The notes beneath the pieces were generated by a model. That model was not told the origin of the DNA. It saw nothing but the letters and a program-made list of their open reading frames with translations, and did not search any database. Of a DNA stretch of 37,682 bases, positions 4,397 to 13,794 are shown piece after piece. Source of the stretch: an uncultured Eubacteriales bacterium. Lineage in GTDB: Bacteria > Bacillota > Clostridia > Oscillospirales > Acutalibacteraceae. Location: contig ONLA01000024.1 in the NCBI GenBank assembly GCA_900318495.1, positions 1 to 37,682 of the forward strand, written 5' to 3'. Position numbers and translations under genes: made by a program. Position 1 is the first letter of the stretch, and every line of letters begins with the position of its first letter.

Positions 4397-4490
4397 TACT
4401 AATACCTAATAAAAAGTAGCCAATCTTTGCGGTCTATTTTCCGCAATACTGCGTTGTCGTCCTTGCAAGGCGCCAGCCTTGCCGCGTCCT
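4397..4490 (+). repeat. Dispersed 96-bp element, copy B
   Basis: Identical to positions 3-96 of the copies at 27062 and 37586. It fills the whole gap between two convergent genes: it starts 4 nt after the regulator stop and its last two bases form part of the TAG stop of the minus-strand GTPase gene. Two hairpins are possible: TTGCGG/CCGCAA and GCAAGGC/GCCTTGC. Confidence 0.95.
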
Positions 4491-7074
4491 ATACGTTGTT
4501 ATCAAGCTCCGAAATAAGCCTTCTTATTTCCTCCTGCGCTTCCTTTACCTCGTCGTAAAACATCCGCGACGGAACGCGGAGCGCGCCGTTTCCGAGGATA
4601 ATAAGCTGCTCCATTCCGTCGGAGGTTACCACTCTTACCCTGTTGTTTTTGGCGAGCCTGTGCGAGGTTTTTTCGATGTACATATCGGCGGTTTCCGCTT
4701 CCTTGGTGTACACAATGCTTATTCCGTTAACCTGCTCCACCTCGCGCGAGCTGCCCTTGACCTTGTACGCGTCAAACACCAAAATCAGCTCGCATTTTTT
4801 AAAGCCCTGATAATTGCACAGAATATTTATAAGCGCGAAGCGTGCGCTGTCAATGCTTTCTTCGGCAAGCTTTTTCAGGCTTTCCCACGAAAAAATAACG
4901 TTGTAGCCGTCAACAAGCACATACTCCGTACCGTCGTAGGACGGCGCGGATTTTTTCCTGTATTTCGGGTCGCCCGAGTCCGTTTTAGGCTTAAAATGCC
5001 TGCGCAGCTCGTTTTCACGGTGCTGCTTAACCGGGCCGTAGGTCTGCTCGAAAATGCGCATAAGCTCCTTGTCCGACGCGAAAAAGTCCTTTTGCGTTTC
5101 AGCCTGCCTCGCTATTTTTTTCTTTAGGGCTTCTCCGTTCGGCTTGGAGGTGTTAAGCACGCTTGGCAGGTGCATATAATTTTTGACCTCGTTCCACTTT
5201 ACGATGTGTCCGGCGCCGTGAGAGCAAAAAACAGAGTCACACGGATTGTCAGTGTCCGCCTCGGGATTATAGGCAAACCGCGAGATAACCCCGTCTGAGT
5301 CGCCGCACTCGCTGTAGCCCTTCAGCGACAGCGTCAGCCTGCCCGCGCCGTGAGTGTACTGCATAACCTCGCGCGCGTAGCCGCGCATTTTGCTGACGGG
5401 AGCCGTGCCGCTGATTACGGTTTCGCCGCCGGAGGTTTCGGGCGGTTCAAAGCTTCCGTTCATAAGCTGAATGTCGTTCATCGCGCGTCCCGTGTTTTCA
5501 GCGGGAACCTCGAGGGTGAATTCATAGAACGGCTCAAGCAGTATGCTTTTTGCCTGCATAAGCCCCTGGCGAACCGCGCGGTAGGTTGCCTGGCGAAAAT
5601 CTCCGCCCTCGGTGTGCTTGGCGTGCGCTTTGCCCGACACAAGCGAGATTTCAACGTCGGTAACAGGCGAGCCGGTCAAAACACCGAGGTGGGTTTTCTC
5701 GTAAAGGTGTGTCAGAATCAGCCTCTGCCAGTTTATGTCGAGCGAATCGCGGCTGCATTCGCTTTTGTATATCACTCCGCTGTTTCGCGGAAGCGGCTTT
5801 ATAAGCAGGTGAACCTCGGCGTAATGGCGCAGCGGTTCAAAATGCCCGACTCCCTCAACAGCGTCCGCGACGGTTTCCTTGTAAATTATGCTGCCCTCGC
5901 CGAAATCCGCGTCAAAGCCGAAGCGGTCGTGTATTACACGGCGAAGTATTTCAAGCTGGATGTCGCCCATAAGCCGAACCTGAATTTCACCGTAACGCTC
6001 GTTGTATTCAACGTTAAGCTGAGGGTCCTCGGCTTCGAGCACACGCATTTTTGACAGCGCCGTGTGAACGTCAATGCTGTCGGGCAAAATCATACTGTAG
6101 GTCAGCACAGGCTCCAGCACGGGGATATCCGCTCCGCTTTCAGCGCCCAGACCGTCGCCTGCTCCGGCAAAGGTTATGCCGGTTACCGCGCAGACGGTTC
6201 CTGCCCCGGCGGATTCGGGAGCGGCGAACTTTTCACCCGAATACAGGCGGATTTGGTTAACCTTTTCGCTTTTGCCGCCTGTTTTGCAGGTCAGCACATC
6301 CCTGACTCTCAGCTCGCCGCCAGTTATTTTCATATGAGTAAGGCGGTTGCCGCGGCTGTCCTCCGATATTTTGTAAACCCTGGCGGCAAATTCGCTGCCG
6401 TATGACGGCATAAGGGTGTATTTGTCAAGACAGGCAAGGAATCCCTCAACGCCTTCAAGCTTCAGCGCCGAGCCGTACATCACCGGAAACACGCGGCGCT
6501 GCTTTACCGCCCGGGCAATAACGCCGCTGTCAAGCGTTCCGTCCTCGTATTTTTCAAGCAGCTCCTCGTGGCACAGGGCAATGTTTTCATAAAGGCCTTC
6601 GGCGTCGCCGAAATCGACGCAGCAGTCGCTCAGCTTGGTTTTTAGCTGGGTAAAAACAGTTTCCCTTGACGCGCCCTGCAAATCCATTTTATTTACGAAT
6701 ATGAAGCAGGGAATGCCATAGCGCCTTAAAAGCTTCCACAGGGTTTGGGTGTGGCTTTGAACGCCGTCGGTTCCGCTGATTACCAGCACGGCGTAATCGA
6801 GCACGCTCATAGTGCGCTCGGTTTCAGCCGAAAAATCGACGTGGCCGGGCGTATCGAGCAAGGTAAAACAGGTTGTGCCGTAGTTTAGCAGCGCCTGCTT
6901 TGAGAATATGGTGATTCCGCGCTCGCGCTCAAGCGCGAAGTTGTCCAAAAAGGAGTTTTTATGGTCTACCCTGCCGAGCTTTCCGATATTGCCGGAGCAA
7001 TACATCAAGGCCTCGGACAGCGTAGTTTTTCCCGAATCGACATGGGCTAAAATTCCGGCTGCTATTTTTTTCAT
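4489..7074 (-). CDS. EF-G/TetM-like translational GTPase fused to a YacP/Rae1-like NYN nuclease domain
   Basis: Protein of 861 aa. Residues 1-~640 are a ribosomal-protection-type elongation factor: G1 AHVDSGKTT (10-18), G2 RGIT (52-55), G3 DTPGHVD (74-80), G4 NKMD (128-131), followed by EF-G-like domains II-V. A charged linker (about 655-715) leads into residues 718-861, a YacP-type NYN domain with LVDGYNVIF (D722), LVFDAY (D768), ADMYIEK (D797) and VVTSDG (D819), the acidic residues expected of this metal-dependent RNase fold. Free-standing YacP (Rae1) is a ribosome A-site mRNA endonuclease in Bacillus. TetM-like GTPases also act at the A site, so a ribosome-directed mRNA-cleaving machine is inferred. 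The domain IV loop reads KHTEGGDFRQAT, not the SPVSTPADF type of TetM, so tetracycline resistance should not be assumed. ATG 7074 has AAGGAG 8 nt upstream. Confidence 0.9.
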   Translation of the reverse strand: MKKIAAGILAHVDSGKTTLSEALMYCSGNIGKLGRVDHKNSFLDNFALERERGITIFSKQALLNYGTTCFTLLDTPGHVDFSAETERTMSVLDYAVLVISGTDGVQSHTQTLWKLLRRYGIPCFIFVNKMDLQGASRETVFTQLKTKLSDCCVDFGDAEGLYENIALCHEELLEKYEDGTLDSGVIARAVKQRRVFPVMYGSALKLEGVEGFLACLDKYTLMPSYGSEFAARVYKISEDSRGNRLTHMKITGGELRVRDVLTCKTGGKSEKVNQIRLYSGEKFAAPESAGAGTVCAVTGITFAGAGDGLGAESGADIPVLEPVLTYSMILPDSIDVHTALSKMRVLEAEDPQLNVEYNERYGEIQVRLMGDIQLEILRRVIHDRFGFDADFGEGSIIYKETVADAVEGVGHFEPLRHYAEVHLLIKPLPRNSGVIYKSECSRDSLDINWQRLILTHLYEKTHLGVLTGSPVTDVEISLVSGKAHAKHTEGGDFRQATYRAVRQGLMQAKSILLEPFYEFTLEVPAENTGRAMNDIQLMNGSFEPPETSGGETVISGTAPVSKMRGYAREVMQYTHGAGRLTLSLKGYSECGDSDGVISRFAYNPEADTDNPCDSVFCSHGAGHIVKWNEVKNYMHLPSVLNTSKPNGEALKKKIARQAETQKDFFASDKELMRIFEQTYGPVKQHRENELRRHFKPKTDSGDPKYRKKSAPSYDGTEYVLVDGYNVIFSWESLKKLAEESIDSARFALINILCNYQGFKKCELILVFDAYKVKGSSREVEQVNGISIVYTKEAETADMYIEKTSHRLAKNNRVRVVTSDGMEQLIILGNGALRVPSRMFYDEVKEAQEEIRRLISELDNNV

Positions 7075-7093
7075 ATTTTCACTCCTTTTTGCG

Positions 7094-7122
7094 GTGACAA
7101 AGCGTCCGCGGTTTGGTATAAT
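7094..7122 (+). promoter_or_regulatory. SigmaA-type promoter for the MBL-fold gene
   Basis: GTGACA (7094-7099), a 17-nt spacer and TATAAT (7117-7122). Predicted initiation near 7129 leaves a leader of only about 10 nt before the ATG at 7139. It lies in the 64-bp divergent gap shared with the GTPase-NYN gene. Confidence 0.6.
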
Positions 7123-7138
7123 TAAATAGGTGATATTT

Positions 7139-7912
7139 ATGAGAATTACGGCGTTGACCGAAAACACAACCGAGCTCGGTTTTCCGGTTGAGCACGGTCT
7201 CAGCCTGTATATTGAAACCGGAAACCGTAAAATTTTATTTGACAGCGGACAGTCCGCGCTGTTTGCCGAAAACGCCGCAAGGCTCGGAATCGACCTCGGC
7301 AGGGTTGACTTCGCGGTGCTGTCGCACGGTCACTACGACCACGGCGGCGGTTTGAAAAAGTTTCTTGAAATCAACACACACGCTCCTGTTTATGTGAGCA
7401 GATACGCGTTTGAGCCGCATTTTAACGCCGAAGGCAAATACATAGGGCTTGACAAAAGCCTCGGGAACAATCCGAGGATTGTTTTTACCGGCGGCGCCTA
7501 CAAAATTTGCAGTGGAGCCGAGCTGTATTCCCGCGAAGGGCGTGAAACGCTGTTCAAAACAAGCGCCTTCGGGCTTAAAGCCGAAAGAAACGGCAATATT
7601 ATTACCGATGATTTCCGCCACGAGCATTACTTAATGCTTGATGAAAACGGCAGGAAAATTTTATTCAGCGGTTGCTCGCACAGCGGAATCCTGAATATTG
7701 TTAATTGGTTCAAGCCCGATTTTTTAGTGGGCGGCTTCCACTTTTTCAAGCTTTCCCCGGGAGAAGAGCTTGAAAGCTACACAAGGCTTCTGGACAAAAC
7801 CAACGCGCGTTACTACACCTGCCACTGCACCGGCGCGGAACAGTACCGCTTTATGAAAACCATAATGCCCCGGCTCCGGTATATTTCGACCGGTCAGTCT
7901 ATAGAGCTGTAA
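7139..7912 (+). CDS. Metallo-beta-lactamase-fold hydrolase (COG1237 type)
   Basis: Cytoplasmic MBL-fold protein of 257 aa. It has the metal site SHGHYDHGGG with H63, H65, D67 and H68, a later GCSHSGILN motif and a C-terminal CHCTG. This pattern fits the COG1237 group, often annotated as dihydropterin-methylaminobenzene phosphate synthase-like because of an archaeal member; the substrate is not predictable. ATG 7139 is chosen because AGGTGA precedes it, though the predicted transcript start is very near and a GTG at 7130 is possible. It is transcribed divergently from the GTPase-NYN gene. Its last 19 bases overlap the 3' end of the convergent alpha/beta hydrolase. Confidence 0.88.
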   Translation: MRITALTENTTELGFPVEHGLSLYIETGNRKILFDSGQSALFAENAARLGIDLGRVDFAVLSHGHYDHGGGLKKFLEINTHAPVYVSRYAFEPHFNAEGKYIGLDKSLGNNPRIVFTGGAYKICSGAELYSREGRETLFKTSAFGLKAERNGNIITDDFRHEHYLMLDENGRKILFSGCSHSGILNIVNWFKPDFLVGGFHFFKLSPGEELESYTRLLDKTNARYYTCHCTGAEQYRFMKTIMPRLRYISTGQSIEL

Positions 7913-8875: not shown

Positions 8876-9571
8876 ATGCCACATTTAGACGAACTAATCA
8901 TCGGTGTTATTGAAAAAAGGTTTCCCGTTCAGGCTCAGCACACTGATGAAATCAACAGGCTCACAAAGTCAATCGACGACGAAGAGAAGTCAATTCAGGA
9001 AAACTATCTTGAAATCGGCAGGCTTTATTATGAACAGAATCCCGACGCGTCCGAAGGGGAAATCGGCGAAGCGGTTGGCAAAATTAATGAGTCCAACAAA
9101 AAAATTAAAGCAAGCAAAATGAAGATTGGCACGCTTATGGGTTACACCTTCTGCGAAACCTGCGGCGCTCAGGTTGAGGAGGACGACCTTTACTGCAACA
9201 ACTGCGGCGCTAAGATGCCCGTTAAGGTTCTGCCCGGAATGGAGCTTTGTCCGCACTGCCACAAGGCTGTTAAAGCCGGAATCCGCTTTTGCACAAACTG
9301 CGGCAAGCCTATGCAGGAGGAGGAAAAGCCCAAGGTTAAGGAGTGCCCGAGCTGCGGCTTTACAACCGAGAATCTCGATATGATTTTCTGCGAAAAGTGT
9401 AACAGAAGACTTGTTATGGAGGGCGGCGACCCCGAGGAAGAAACCGTTGTTGAGGAAAAGCTTCCGGTACACAAGGTTTGCCCTGCCTGCGGCTTCAAGA
9501 TTTTTGACGCTGACACAATGTTCTGCGAAAAATGCAACAGAAGACTTGTTGAGGACGAAGCGGCTGAATAA
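8876..9571 (+). CDS. Protein with four zinc ribbons and an N-terminal helical region
   Basis: Unrecognised protein of 231 aa. Residues about 20-90 are charged and heptad-like, probably a helical coiled segment. Four double-CxxC zinc-ribbon units follow: C93/C96-C107/C110, C125/C128-C139/C142, C157/C160-C172/C175 and C202/C205-C217/C220. The last two are near-duplicates (CPSCGF...FCEKCNRRL and CPACGF...FCEKCNRRL). No membrane segment is seen. It may be a structural or protein-protein scaffold; no enzymatic motif is visible. ATG 8876 follows GGGAGG at 8 nt spacing. It is monocistronic with a consensus promoter and a bidirectional terminator. Confidence 0.85.
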   Translation: MPHLDELIIGVIEKRFPVQAQHTDEINRLTKSIDDEEKSIQENYLEIGRLYYEQNPDASEGEIGEAVGKINESNKKIKASKMKIGTLMGYTFCETCGAQVEEDDLYCNNCGAKMPVKVLPGMELCPHCHKAVKAGIRFCTNCGKPMQEEEKPKVKECPSCGFTTENLDMIFCEKCNRRLVMEGGDPEEETVVEEKLPVHKVCPACGFKIFDADTMFCEKCNRRLVEDEAAE

Positions 9572-10563: not shown

Positions 10564-11637
10564 TTATCTGCGTCTGCGCTTGCTTTTTTTGTCTTTTAAA
10601 GCGTAAGCGATAATAAGCATAGTTGTAACCACAATGATAAGAACAATTCCGATTGCGGACAGAACTTCGGGAGAAATCTTTGAGCTGTTGACCTTGGTCT
10701 GGGTTGCAAGGTTCGCGCTGCTGTTTCCTGCAAGATTCTGAGCGTCGCCGTAATTTGCCTTGTTGGCGAATTCTCTTGCTTCGGGAGTTGAGTACTCTCC
10801 GTAAGGATCTGTTGTCGGGTGCATTGCGTCGGTCTTGCCTTCGGTTACCGCACCGGTTGTCGCTCCGCCTGTTGTGCCCATTGCCGTTGTAGCCTCCGCC
10901 GTGCTTAACGGTGTGGTGCTTTCGGCCGGTACTGTGCTTGAAGGAGCCGTGCTATCTGTAGGCTCTGCAGTTACCGGAGCAGTTGTGGGCTCGGTAGTCG
11001 GTTCAACCGTTGTGGGCGCCTCTGTTGTGGGCGCGGCGGTTGTTGGCGGCGTTGTCGGACGCGGAGCCGTTGTGGGCGGCGTCGTCGGACGCGGAACAGT
11101 TGTGGGTACCGCCGTTGTATGCGGAACTGTGGTCGCAGGCACGGTTGTCATAGCAGGTTCGGTAGTTACAGGAACTGTTGTAGGTTCAACCGTTGTCGGC
11201 GGCGCTGTAGTTGCCACGGGATTTGTTGCTCTCGGAGCTGTAGTAGCAGGAACAGTTGTGGGCTGTGTGGCAGCTCTGTTTGAAGAATTTCTGTTAGAGC
11301 GTGCCGCTGTTGAAGCAGCCGGATGACTGTTGCTTTCAATATAATAGCTCAGCGACCTGTTATACGGCAAAGCGCCGTTGCTTCCTCCTGTGCCTGTACC
11401 TGCAACTGTCGTGAGTCCCGTAACGGGGTCAGTGCTGCTGCCAAGCAGAGGATTATAAAAAGGTGACTGGCTGCTGTTGTTTGATTTTTGAACTACATCC
11501 GGAGGCACATACTGATCGCCGACATTGATACATGAAGTGGTAATGATAATACCTACAACAATCACAGGGATCAATATCATCATAATGATGTACATTGACT
11601 TTTGAATCCTGCTATATACCAATTCGTATTTATTCAC
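10564..11637 (-). CDS. Mucin-like Pro/Thr-rich protein with N- and C-terminal membrane segments
   Basis: Unrecognised protein of 357 aa. Residues about 15-38 form a hydrophobic helix (signal anchor), and about 324-347 form a second one followed by a basic tail ending RRRR. The middle (about 118-275) is low complexity built on TTVP, TTAP, PTTPPTTA and EPTT units, as in glycosylated stalks of surface proteins. A small N-terminal segment and a juxtamembrane segment rich in N, Q and S flank it. With helices at both ends, the stalk probably loops outside the membrane; topology is inferred. No catalytic motif is seen. GTG 11637 follows GGGAGG at good spacing. It has its own promoter and terminator. 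Confidence 0.8.
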   Translation of the reverse strand: MNKYELVYSRIQKSMYIIMMILIPVIVVGIIITTSCINVGDQYVPPDVVQKSNNSSQSPFYNPLLGSSTDPVTGLTTVAGTGTGGSNGALPYNRSLSYYIESNSHPAASTAARSNRNSSNRAATQPTTVPATTAPRATNPVATTAPPTTVEPTTVPVTTEPAMTTVPATTVPHTTAVPTTVPRPTTPPTTAPRPTTPPTTAAPTTEAPTTVEPTTEPTTAPVTAEPTDSTAPSSTVPAESTTPLSTAEATTAMGTTGGATTGAVTEGKTDAMHPTTDPYGEYSTPEAREFANKANYGDAQNLAGNSSANLATQTKVNSSKISPEVLSAIGIVLIIVVTTMLIIAYALKDKKSKRRRR

Positions 11638-12047: not shown

Positions 12048-12578
12048 TTACCTGTATTTTATTGGTATTGTAATTCCGGCAATTGCCATAATCACAATTA
12101 ACACAACGATTAAAATCGTACCGATTAGTGATAAAATCAGGACTGCTCTCGCATAGTTTTTGAGCGACTGCTTTGTTGAGGAGCTGAACGCCCATACAAA
12201 AAGCATAATCAGATTTACAAGCGGAAGAACCGAAAGGAAAAATACACCAATCCAGCCGCCTATGGTAACAGGCTCGTTGTTCGTGCTTTGCATATTATAA
12301 TAATTTGCCGAAGGCTGGGGAGGCGTATAGTATTCCGGCTGATTTAAGTTCTGAGGCGGTGTGTTATACTGCTGCCGGTTATCATAGCCGCCGGAGACTG
12401 TGGTTGTTTTTTCATCAAAAAAATCGTTTCCCTGATTATACGGATTGCTTTCGCGGTTCAAAACACTTGTTTCCGCCTCGCCTGTATTGTCGGCGTAAGA
12501 ACGCGCGACAGCGTTTCCGCATTTTGTGCAGTAATTAACATTATCGGGAAGGCTTGCTCCGCAATGTGAACATTTCAT
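12048..12578 (-). CDS. Zinc-ribbon protein with C-terminal membrane helices
   Basis: Unrecognised protein of 176 aa. The N-terminus is a single zinc ribbon, CSHCG...YCTKCG (C3, C6, C17, C20). Residues about 25-100 are polar and disordered, rich in N, Q, Y and P. Two hydrophobic helices follow (about 105-132 and 145-170). This zinc-ribbon-plus-membrane layout is common in Firmicutes proteins of unknown function. ATG 12578 follows AAGGAGG at 8 nt. It is transcribed from its own consensus promoter just behind the ftsZ terminator, so it is not part of the dcw operon. It shares zinc-ribbon style and promoter strength with the gene at 8876, but no homology beyond that is visible. Confidence 0.82.
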   Translation of the reverse strand: MKCSHCGASLPDNVNYCTKCGNAVARSYADNTGEAETSVLNRESNPYNQGNDFFDEKTTTVSGGYDNRQQYNTPPQNLNQPEYYTPPQPSANYYNMQSTNNEPVTIGGWIGVFFLSVLPLVNLIMLFVWAFSSSTKQSLKNYARAVLILSLIGTILIVVLIVIMAIAGITIPIKYR

Positions 12579-12690: not shown

Positions 12691-13794
12691 TTATTTATTA
12701 AAGATTGACATAATGTCGTAGAATGTATCGTCCTCGTCGTCGGTTGTGTCCTTTGTAGCCTTTGAAGGCGCGGACTTTTTCGGCTCGGGAGTATCAACAA
12801 TAACATTATCGGTGGGCTTGGGTCTTGAGGCTTCAACGCCTGTGCCAAAGCCGGTAGCGATAACTGTTACGCTCATCTGGTCGTCCATTTTATCGTCGAT
12901 AACGGCACCCCAAATAATGTTGGCGTCTTCGGACACCTTGTCCTTAATCATAGTTGAGGCGGCGTCGATATCGTCAAGGCTTACGTCGGAGGAAGCTGTG
13001 ATGTTGATGATAAGACCCTTAGCGCCGTCGATTGAGGTTTCAAGCAGCGGACTTGAAATTGCCATATCAGCCGCAATTGTAGCCTTGTCCTTGCCGGTAG
13101 CGCTGCCCATACCCATATGAGCGTAGCCTGCGTCCTTCATAACCGAGGTAACGTCGGCAAAGTCGAGGTTTACAAGACCGGGAAGCAGGATGAGGTCGGA
13201 AATACTCTGAACACCCTGTCTTAAAACATCATCAGCGATGGCGAAAGCGTTCTGGAGAGTGATGCTGGTGTCGGAAACATATTTGAGTCTTTCGTTGGGA
13301 ACGATAATAAGCGAATCAACGCAAGCCGAAAGCTCGGCGATGCCCTGCTCAGCCTGAGTCATTCTTCTTTTACCCTCGAAGGCAAACGGCTTTGTAACTA
13401 CGCCTACTGTGAGAATACCCATATCCTTGGCAATTTTGGCAACAACGGGAGCCGCGCCGGTACCTGTTCCGCCGCCCATACCTGCGGTTACAAATACCAT
13501 ATCTGTGTCCTTGAGCAAAGCTGCGATTTCGTCCTTGCTTTCCTCAGCCGCGCTCTGACCGATTGAAGGCATCGAGCCCGCGCCCTTGCCGCGCGTAAGC
13601 TTTTCGCCGATTTGAATTTTTTGCGAAGCCTTTGAAAGTCTTAATACGTGTTCATCGGTATTGATTGCGATAAACTCAACGTTCTTAACCTCCATCGCAA
13701 CCATACGGTTAACAGCGTTTCCGCCGCCGCCGCCAACGCCGATTACTTTAATTTTTGGCATATACTCATTTTCCAATTCCAGTTCAAAAGCCAT
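12691..13794 (-). CDS. ftsZ: Cell division protein FtsZ
   Basis: Tubulin-like GTPase of 367 aa that polymerises into the division ring. Near the N-terminus [16 protein letters not shown] forms the first nucleotide loop, then the tubulin signature [13 protein letters not shown], and the T7 loop [11 protein letters not shown] with the catalytic acidic residue. A short variable linker rich in P, K and S ends in a C-terminal conserved peptide ([13 protein letters not shown]) that would bind membrane anchors. ftsA, usually next door, is absent here, so the anchor is encoded elsewhere or is SepF. ATG 13794 has AAGGAGG upstream. It is the last gene of the dcw run, 216 bp after ftsQ with its own promoter. 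Confidence 0.97.

Follow-up and report, generated by a model that had tools for sequence, protein, structure and literature searches.

A translational GTPase and a Rae1/YacP-type NYN nuclease are fused in a single protein of an uncultured Eubacteriales bacterium. We put at about one in two the probability that it serves paused ribosomes as a housekeeping-type factor encoded on the chromosome, which would clear the A site and cut the mRNA. The gene was found in a stretch of 37,682 nucleotides (contig ONLA01000024.1), called the window below. According to the excerpts of the literature available to us, Rae1 cleaves mRNA within the ribosomal A site (PMC6613710, PMC12320835), which is also where Tet-type GTPases act (PMC8161019). 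The available sections of Atkinson 2015 (PMC4342817) describe a YacP-like NYN domain on the Tet proteins of ten Clostridiales species and read it as a possible RNase-based resistance mechanism. Among the literature searched, which comprised excerpts and did not include the Rae1 papers Leroy 2017 and Condon 2018, the fusion is mentioned only in PMC4342817. As far as these searches go, what is new beyond Atkinson 2015 is how widespread the fusion is, that it replaces Rae1, that the two genes also occur separately and that the GTPase is set apart from Tet proteins.

Gene structure and domain organisation

The gene is located on the minus strand, running from 7074 to 4489, and the stop codon of the 861-residue product lies within these coordinates. 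The coordinates given in the preliminary description were correct, and the plus-strand reading frame over the same interval is interrupted by stops. The full open reading frame (4489-7167) opens at GTG. Judged from the Shine-Dalgarno sequence and the aligned M1, the ATG at 7074 is the better start.

The Pfam search showed a complete set of EF-G/Tet-type domains followed by NYN_YacP (Table 1), as expected for the EF-G/TetM-type factor with a C-terminal NYN fusion that had been described. GTP_EFTU with domains II-V, the intact G motifs and the EF-G fold place the protein among the EF2-family translational GTPases. The NYN_YacP match scored 162.8 bits against a cut-off of 24.6 (PF05991), and the solved YacP/Rae1 structures 5mq8 and 5mq9 were matched by the same part with an E value of 1e-23. 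The outline of the C-terminal GTPase extension is common to the stand-alone GTPase forms too. In the structure model, residues 647-679 of the linker form a predicted helix of low confidence and residues 679-709 are of very low confidence; a linker motif is kept in the fused proteins around E670-L-x-x-I674-F-E-x-T-Y-G. With a pTM of 0.62, the predicted model does not define where the NYN domain lies.

Table 1. Features of the fusion gene, with positions in the window
Feature	Position	Strand	Basis
CDS, translational GTPase + Rae1/YacP-type NYN nuclease fusion, 861 aa	4489..7074	-	ORF, Pfam
Shine-Dalgarno AAGGAG, ATG 7 bases downstream	7082..7087	-	sequence
G domain (GTP_EFTU), residues 5-219	6418..7062	-	Pfam, E 7.8e-49
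G-domain motifs: P-loop AHVDSGKTT 10-18, RGIT 52-55, DTPGHVDF 74-81, NKMD 128-131	within 6418..7062	-	
EF-G domain II (EF-G_D2), residues 229-309	6148..6390	-	Pfam, E 7.3e-8
EF-G domain III (EFG_III), residues 335-392	5899..6072	-	Pfam, E 4.1e-6
EF-G domain IV (EFG_IV), residues 395-509	5548..5892	-	Pfam, E 1.1e-17
Domain IV loop III, residues 481-499, signature A-H-x-K-H-T-E-G-G-D-F-R replacing the Tet loop	5578..5634	-	
EF-G domain V (EFG_C), residues 512-591	5302..5541	-	Pfam, E 4.3e-18
Family-specific C-terminal GTPase extension, residues 610-636; predicted hairpin + helix	5167..5247	-	alignment, model
Linker, residues 637-716, poorly conserved	4927..5166	-	alignment, model
NYN_YacP nuclease domain, residues 719-856; D722, D768, D797, D819	4507..4920	-	Pfam

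Conservation of the active sites

Conservation was assessed with 77 proteins, composed of the window protein and 76 of the 80 fused loci from named genomes. The four aspartates of the nuclease domain (D722, D768, D797 and D819) are invariant in all 77. A missing NYN_YacP profile match at the C-terminus or a lack of conservation of these acidic residues had been named beforehand as refuting; the match (E 9.5e-48) and the conservation (77 of 77) were both found. The P-loop is invariant apart from position 14, which is alanine or serine. T55, K129 and D131 are present in 77 of 77 proteins, H78 in 76 and N128 in 72. At the tip of domain IV, K486-H487-T488 and G490-G491-D492-F493-R494 are invariant and E489 is found in 76 of the 77; S614, F616, C617, G620 and W627 of the extension are likewise present in every fused form. 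The pairwise dN/dS (10 rows, representing 9 distinct pairs) was 0.07-0.12 for the GTPase. For the NYN domain it could be computed in 7 of the 10 rows and was 0.04-0.11. The linker value was above that of the GTPase in four of five computable rows. These comparisons support purifying selection on both halves, with the active sites kept.

Relation to Tet proteins and EF-G

The window protein scored 404.8 bits with the NCBIfam tet_protect model against a cut-off of 775, and 267.6 bits with the EF-G equivalog model against a cut-off of 659.4. With tet_protect, L130, a protein which also passes the Tet(M/W/O/S) model, scores 853 bits. The tet_protect survey covered 80 genomes that carry either the fusion or the GTPase as a stand-alone form. 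Nine proteins in seven of these genomes passed the cut-off and all of them are separate genes; four of the seven are fusion genomes. Among the matches listed, the top family member reached 457 bits and EF-G-length proteins up to 399 bits.

In the alignment with L130 as the one Tet(M/W/O/S)-family protein, K486, invariant in the 77 fused proteins, aligns with the proline of the Tet loop. We take this proline of L130 to be the counterpart of Pro-509 of TetM. Pro-509, on domain IV loop III of TetM, contacts the tetracycline site according to the available text of PMC8161019.

Over the whole GTPase, the nearest solved proteins are TetO and TetM; with domains IV-V alone, EF-G ranks first. In the structure comparison of residues 1-605, the best 50 rows hold EF-G, EF-2, Snu114-type and comparable chains. 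That none of these 50 titles names TetM or TetO excludes nothing. The window protein is placed outside the Tet clade in both GTPase trees, which hold four and seven Tet-like rows, respectively. In the quick tree with seven, the Tet-like L127 is the nearest row outside the family. The window's genome encodes two other EFG_IV proteins, one of which (L002) groups with EF-G in the tree. As tested here by profile and tree, the GTPase forms a clade of its own beside the Tet proteins and outside them.

Some records of the family carry the label 'TetM/TetW/TetO/TetS family', for example in Agathobacter rectalis, as had been suspected for Clostridia. The doubt raised earlier that this is a classical Tet resistance protein is strengthened by the score below the tet_protect cut-off, the differing domain IV loop and the occurrence of the Tet proteins as separate genes. 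The fusion is probably not the tetracycline-resistance protein of its occasional label.

Distribution and near exclusion of stand-alone Rae1

The class sample consisted of 393 genomes, in which the family GTPase was searched at an E value of 1e-110. An NYN_YacP match was obtained in 250 genomes and none in 143; the family GTPase was matched in 161. Among the 250 Rae1-bearing genomes, 132 were counted as fused. A single open frame of at least 822 residues is present in 127 of them, and the other five (G044, G062, G071, G172 and G235) hold broken or cut copies of the fusion. Twenty-one genomes carry Rae1 and the family GTPase as separate genes. The remaining 97 of the 118 non-fused Rae1 genomes carry Rae1 without the family GTPase; this number includes G130 and G376, whose Tet-like match was set aside, and a few fusions apparently cut by a contig end (e.g. 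G156, G185 and G295). The stand-alone GTPase was also found in 6 of the 143 genomes without detectable Rae1. The association of the separate GTPase with separate Rae1 gave a Fisher p value of 4e-4 that ignores kinship, with 14 of the 21 genomes belonging to one family; taken alone, it is weak evidence for a link between the two. The stand-alone GTPase occurs twice in G106 (C1:577267 and 1255715).

More than one NYN match was seen in five class genomes. The extra matches in G120, G174 and G208 were rejected as Rae1, being weak (about 5e-4) and below the cut-off. Among the five, fusion and intact stand-alone Rae1 occur together only in G284, and the mutual exclusion with stand-alone YacP is near-complete rather than absolute.

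In the window's own family, the fusion is present in 10 of 80 sampled genomes (incomplete in G417 and G455) and the GTPase alone in six (cut by a contig end in G429). Apart from a contig-end piece in G455, stand-alone Rae1 was found in none of the 76 genomes of this family that were tested. Being patchy in this family, the fusion is either dispensable in it or subject to exchange. Completeness of the window's genome is 86%, which leaves the absence of stand-alone Rae1 from it uncertain.

In the phylum sample of 398 genomes, classified by span and open-frame length, 35 genomes gave a match: 28 fused, two of them resting on partial matches, six stand-alone and one Tet-like. Twenty of the 28 fused genomes are outside the class. 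Named carriers, with at least 80 loci, include Ruminococcus, Oscillospiraceae, Lachnospiraceae, Intestinimonas, Anaerovorax, Fusibacter and Eubacterium xylanophilum.

The rlmB-sigH locus

The rlmB locus was read at 30 of 34 loci, covering 23 fused genomes and two genomes with the GTPase and no Rae1. In all four informative stand-alone genomes (G106, G180, G335 and G363), rae1 is located between rlmB and sigH. The rlmB stretch of G209 has neither rae1 nor sigH. Among the 23 fused genomes, no rae1 was detectable between rlmB and sigH in 12, and the stretch lacks sigH and is uninformative in nine, the window's genome included. Of the other two, G370 (L287) carries the fusion together with a decayed rae1, a relict of 37 residues between rlmB and sigH, and G284 has an intact rae1 at this position alongside the fusion (L275, L262). 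The stand-alone rae1 of G284 sits on a long branch; the two forms in one genome may represent a transition state. Read from these gene orders, the fusion seems to have replaced stand-alone rae1 in many clostridia. The replacement at the rlmB locus points to a housekeeping gene more than to a mobile accessory one.

Plasmids, neighbouring genes and other searches

A full-length fusion was present in 2 of the 968 plasmid records with a match (1e-30). One of the two is the 518-kb 'plasmid 12' of Monoglobus pectinilyticus; near the fusion it carries spore-coat and metabolic genes and a single recombinase gene. The stand-alone GTPase form is found on the Ligilactobacillus salivarius megaplasmid pMP118 (L271, 226540-228474), where it adjoins rpsN, encoding ribosomal protein S14, and is labelled as TetM/TetW/TetO/TetS family. 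The NYN query matched 12 Clostridioides difficile 'plasmid' records, and the one examined is a stretch of chromosomal type. This 97-kb record (L269, NZ_CP149721.1) contains gltX, cysS, rlmB, the NYN gene, sigH, tuf, nusG and rpl genes and, judged from this content, looks like a chromosome piece filed as a plasmid. A faecal contig filed as a bacteriophage (L268, MT835563.1) contains an NYN_YacP-like stretch 64.5% identical to that of the window.

No conserved neighbours were found among 757 open reading frames at 77 loci, many of which have short flanks; only general families at scattered positions appeared. Rfam gave zero matches in the window at the gathering threshold, and a search by eye for an upstream leader peptide showed just unremarkable short open reading frames. 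Nothing in PADLOC matched the full protein. A ThsB defence match of the NYN part was weak (E 0.0034) and was taken as chance. Elsewhere in the window, the minus strand holds an FtsZ/tubulin-family gene (12691-13794) and a 357-residue open reading frame with zero Pfam matches at 1e-4 (10564-11637); zinc-ribbon proteins are encoded near the former, at 12048-12578 and 8876-9571.

Origin of the fusion

The fused forms make up one clade in the GTPase tree (28 rows, support 99/98, with a bootstrap that had not settled) and in the quick GTPase tree (23 rows, support 100). Stand-alone GTPases lie outside this clade, in a weakly supported order, and Tet proteins lie further out. In the NYN trees, a branch (99; 100/100) sets the fused-type domains apart, with one stand-alone exception from G209, where a fused-type NYN domain is encoded without the GTPase part and a family GTPase by a separate gene (L030, L119). 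G209 may be a case of fission or swap. A firm nesting of its NYN domain inside the fused clade was not accepted: the tree supports it with 98/94, but fused monophyly is not rejected by the AU test (p 0.184). From these trees, a single origin of the fusion from a stand-alone GTPase is most likely, and the fusion probably came apart at least once. The separate GTPase and Rae1 genes in 21 genomes indicate that the fusion joined two pre-existing genes.

Discussion

For the housekeeping-type factor preferred here, a sequence of steps can be proposed. The GTP-bound EF-G-like part would dock at the factor site of a ribosome that has paused with its A site empty, where the domain IV tip (K-H-T-E-G-G-D-F-R) may probe or clear the decoding site. 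Upon GTP hydrolysis domain IV would be withdrawn, and the NYN domain on its tether of about 80 residues could then enter the A site, within reach through this tether, and cut the mRNA; the ribosome would thereby be bound for rescue and the mRNA for decay. What we infer is that the protein binds ribosomes, acts as a GTPase, cleaves in the A site and takes these steps in this order. Since domain IV and the nuclease should need the same room in the A site, their simultaneous action is doubtful, and the hand-over is placed after GTP hydrolysis.

It had been suggested that the GTPase delivers the nuclease to stalled or drug-bound ribosomes. A pure delivery role was not borne out. The GTPase occurs without detectable Rae1 in the six class genomes and in six genomes of the window's family, which means that it has an action of its own and is more than a carrier. 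The 97 Rae1 genomes without the family GTPase, a few of them cut fusions, and the presumed competition for the A site also oppose it. Drug-bound ribosomes as the target found no support here.

The same observations lend weight to a factor working on two tracks, in which the GTPase clears the A site so that translation resumes and the tethered nuclease cuts only upon failure. The fusion would then fix the ratio and the place of both activities, and the GTPase would be no delivery vehicle. The GTPase kept alone, Rae1 kept without it in up to 97 genomes and the long, weakly conserved linker all agree with this arrangement; by itself, however, it explains neither the stable fusion nor the linker motif around E670-I674, and we consider it possible but doubtful. 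The variable linker, with its partly very low model confidence, would also suit two active enzymes that share a promoter by chance and have no functional coupling. This is very improbable, since the fusion, apparently of one origin, has been maintained over many families and in several classes, stand-alone rae1 was lost and the linker motif is conserved.

A different substrate is conceivable as well. The GTPase might bring the NYN domain to pre-ribosomal particles instead of translating ribosomes. The available part of PMC4342817 states that rRNA/tRNA maturation was the role first suggested for NYN domains, and stand-alone rae1 adjoins rlmB and a ribonuclease III-domain gene. However, the characterised Rae1 cuts mRNA, as far as the excerpts cited above report, and the 143 of 393 class genomes with no NYN_YacP match would be unusual for an rRNA maturation step, which makes this reading improbable. 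Even less credit is given to a ribosomal protection protein for tetracycline resistance with an added RNase, as read in Atkinson 2015. The label of some records and the TetO/TetM proximity over the whole GTPase speak for it, though EF-G comes first for domains IV-V. Against it stand the scores of the window protein and of the top family member listed, the separate genes above the cut-off even in four fusion genomes, the lysine invariant where the Tet loop has proline, the scarcity of full-length fusions in plasmid records and the fact that the fusion stands in for a housekeeping gene.

In its most far-reaching form, the preferred reading is a one-polypeptide, GTP-driven mRNA surveillance machine: an overlooked family of ribosome factors next to Tet, which would work with Rae1 as a separate protein in some clostridia and fused to it in many more, sense paused ribosomes via domain IV and hand the A site to the nuclease after GTP hydrolysis. 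We hold this tentatively, at somewhat less than even odds. If it is true, Tet resistance proteins are relatives of a housekeeping factor for A-site clearing, which gives Tet-like factors a non-resistance kinship, and many gut and environmental clostridia cut the mRNA of paused ribosomes by a GTPase-nuclease that is partly labelled as tetracycline resistance. In microbiome data, one cause of falsely called resistance would be corrected, a bacterial counterpart of GTPase-guided no-go decay would be at hand, and how Rae1 recognises its ribosome would become testable with one purified protein.

Compared with known systems, the fusion is of the same kind as the Tet-NYN proteins of Atkinson 2015, classed there as Tet in the sections available (PMC4342817); in contrast to that reading, it is widespread here, stands in Rae1's stead and lies outside Tet by profile and tree. 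It shares with Rae1/YacP of Bacillus subtilis the NYN_YacP domain, the match to solved structures and the four conserved aspartates. It differs in the five-domain GTPase placed in front and the linker of about 80 residues, and the NYN copy of the window stops at profile position 140-143 of 166; the stand-alone gene is usually absent from fused genomes. Tet(M)/Tet(O)-type ribosomal protection proteins are likewise five-domain EF-G-like GTPases and, with the whole GTPase compared, the closest relatives of solved structure. The fusion is distinguished from them by its separate clade, a score far under the curated cut-off, another domain IV tip, the extra C-terminal hairpin and helix, the added nuclease and its rarity on plasmids. 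In eukaryotic no-go decay, Hbs1/Dom34-type factors act with an mRNA endonuclease, the GTPase being of the EF1 type and the proteins separate. The likeness to the fusion is one of analogy only, namely the sensing of a stalled ribosome by a GTPase combined with cleavage of the mRNA, and no homology is claimed.
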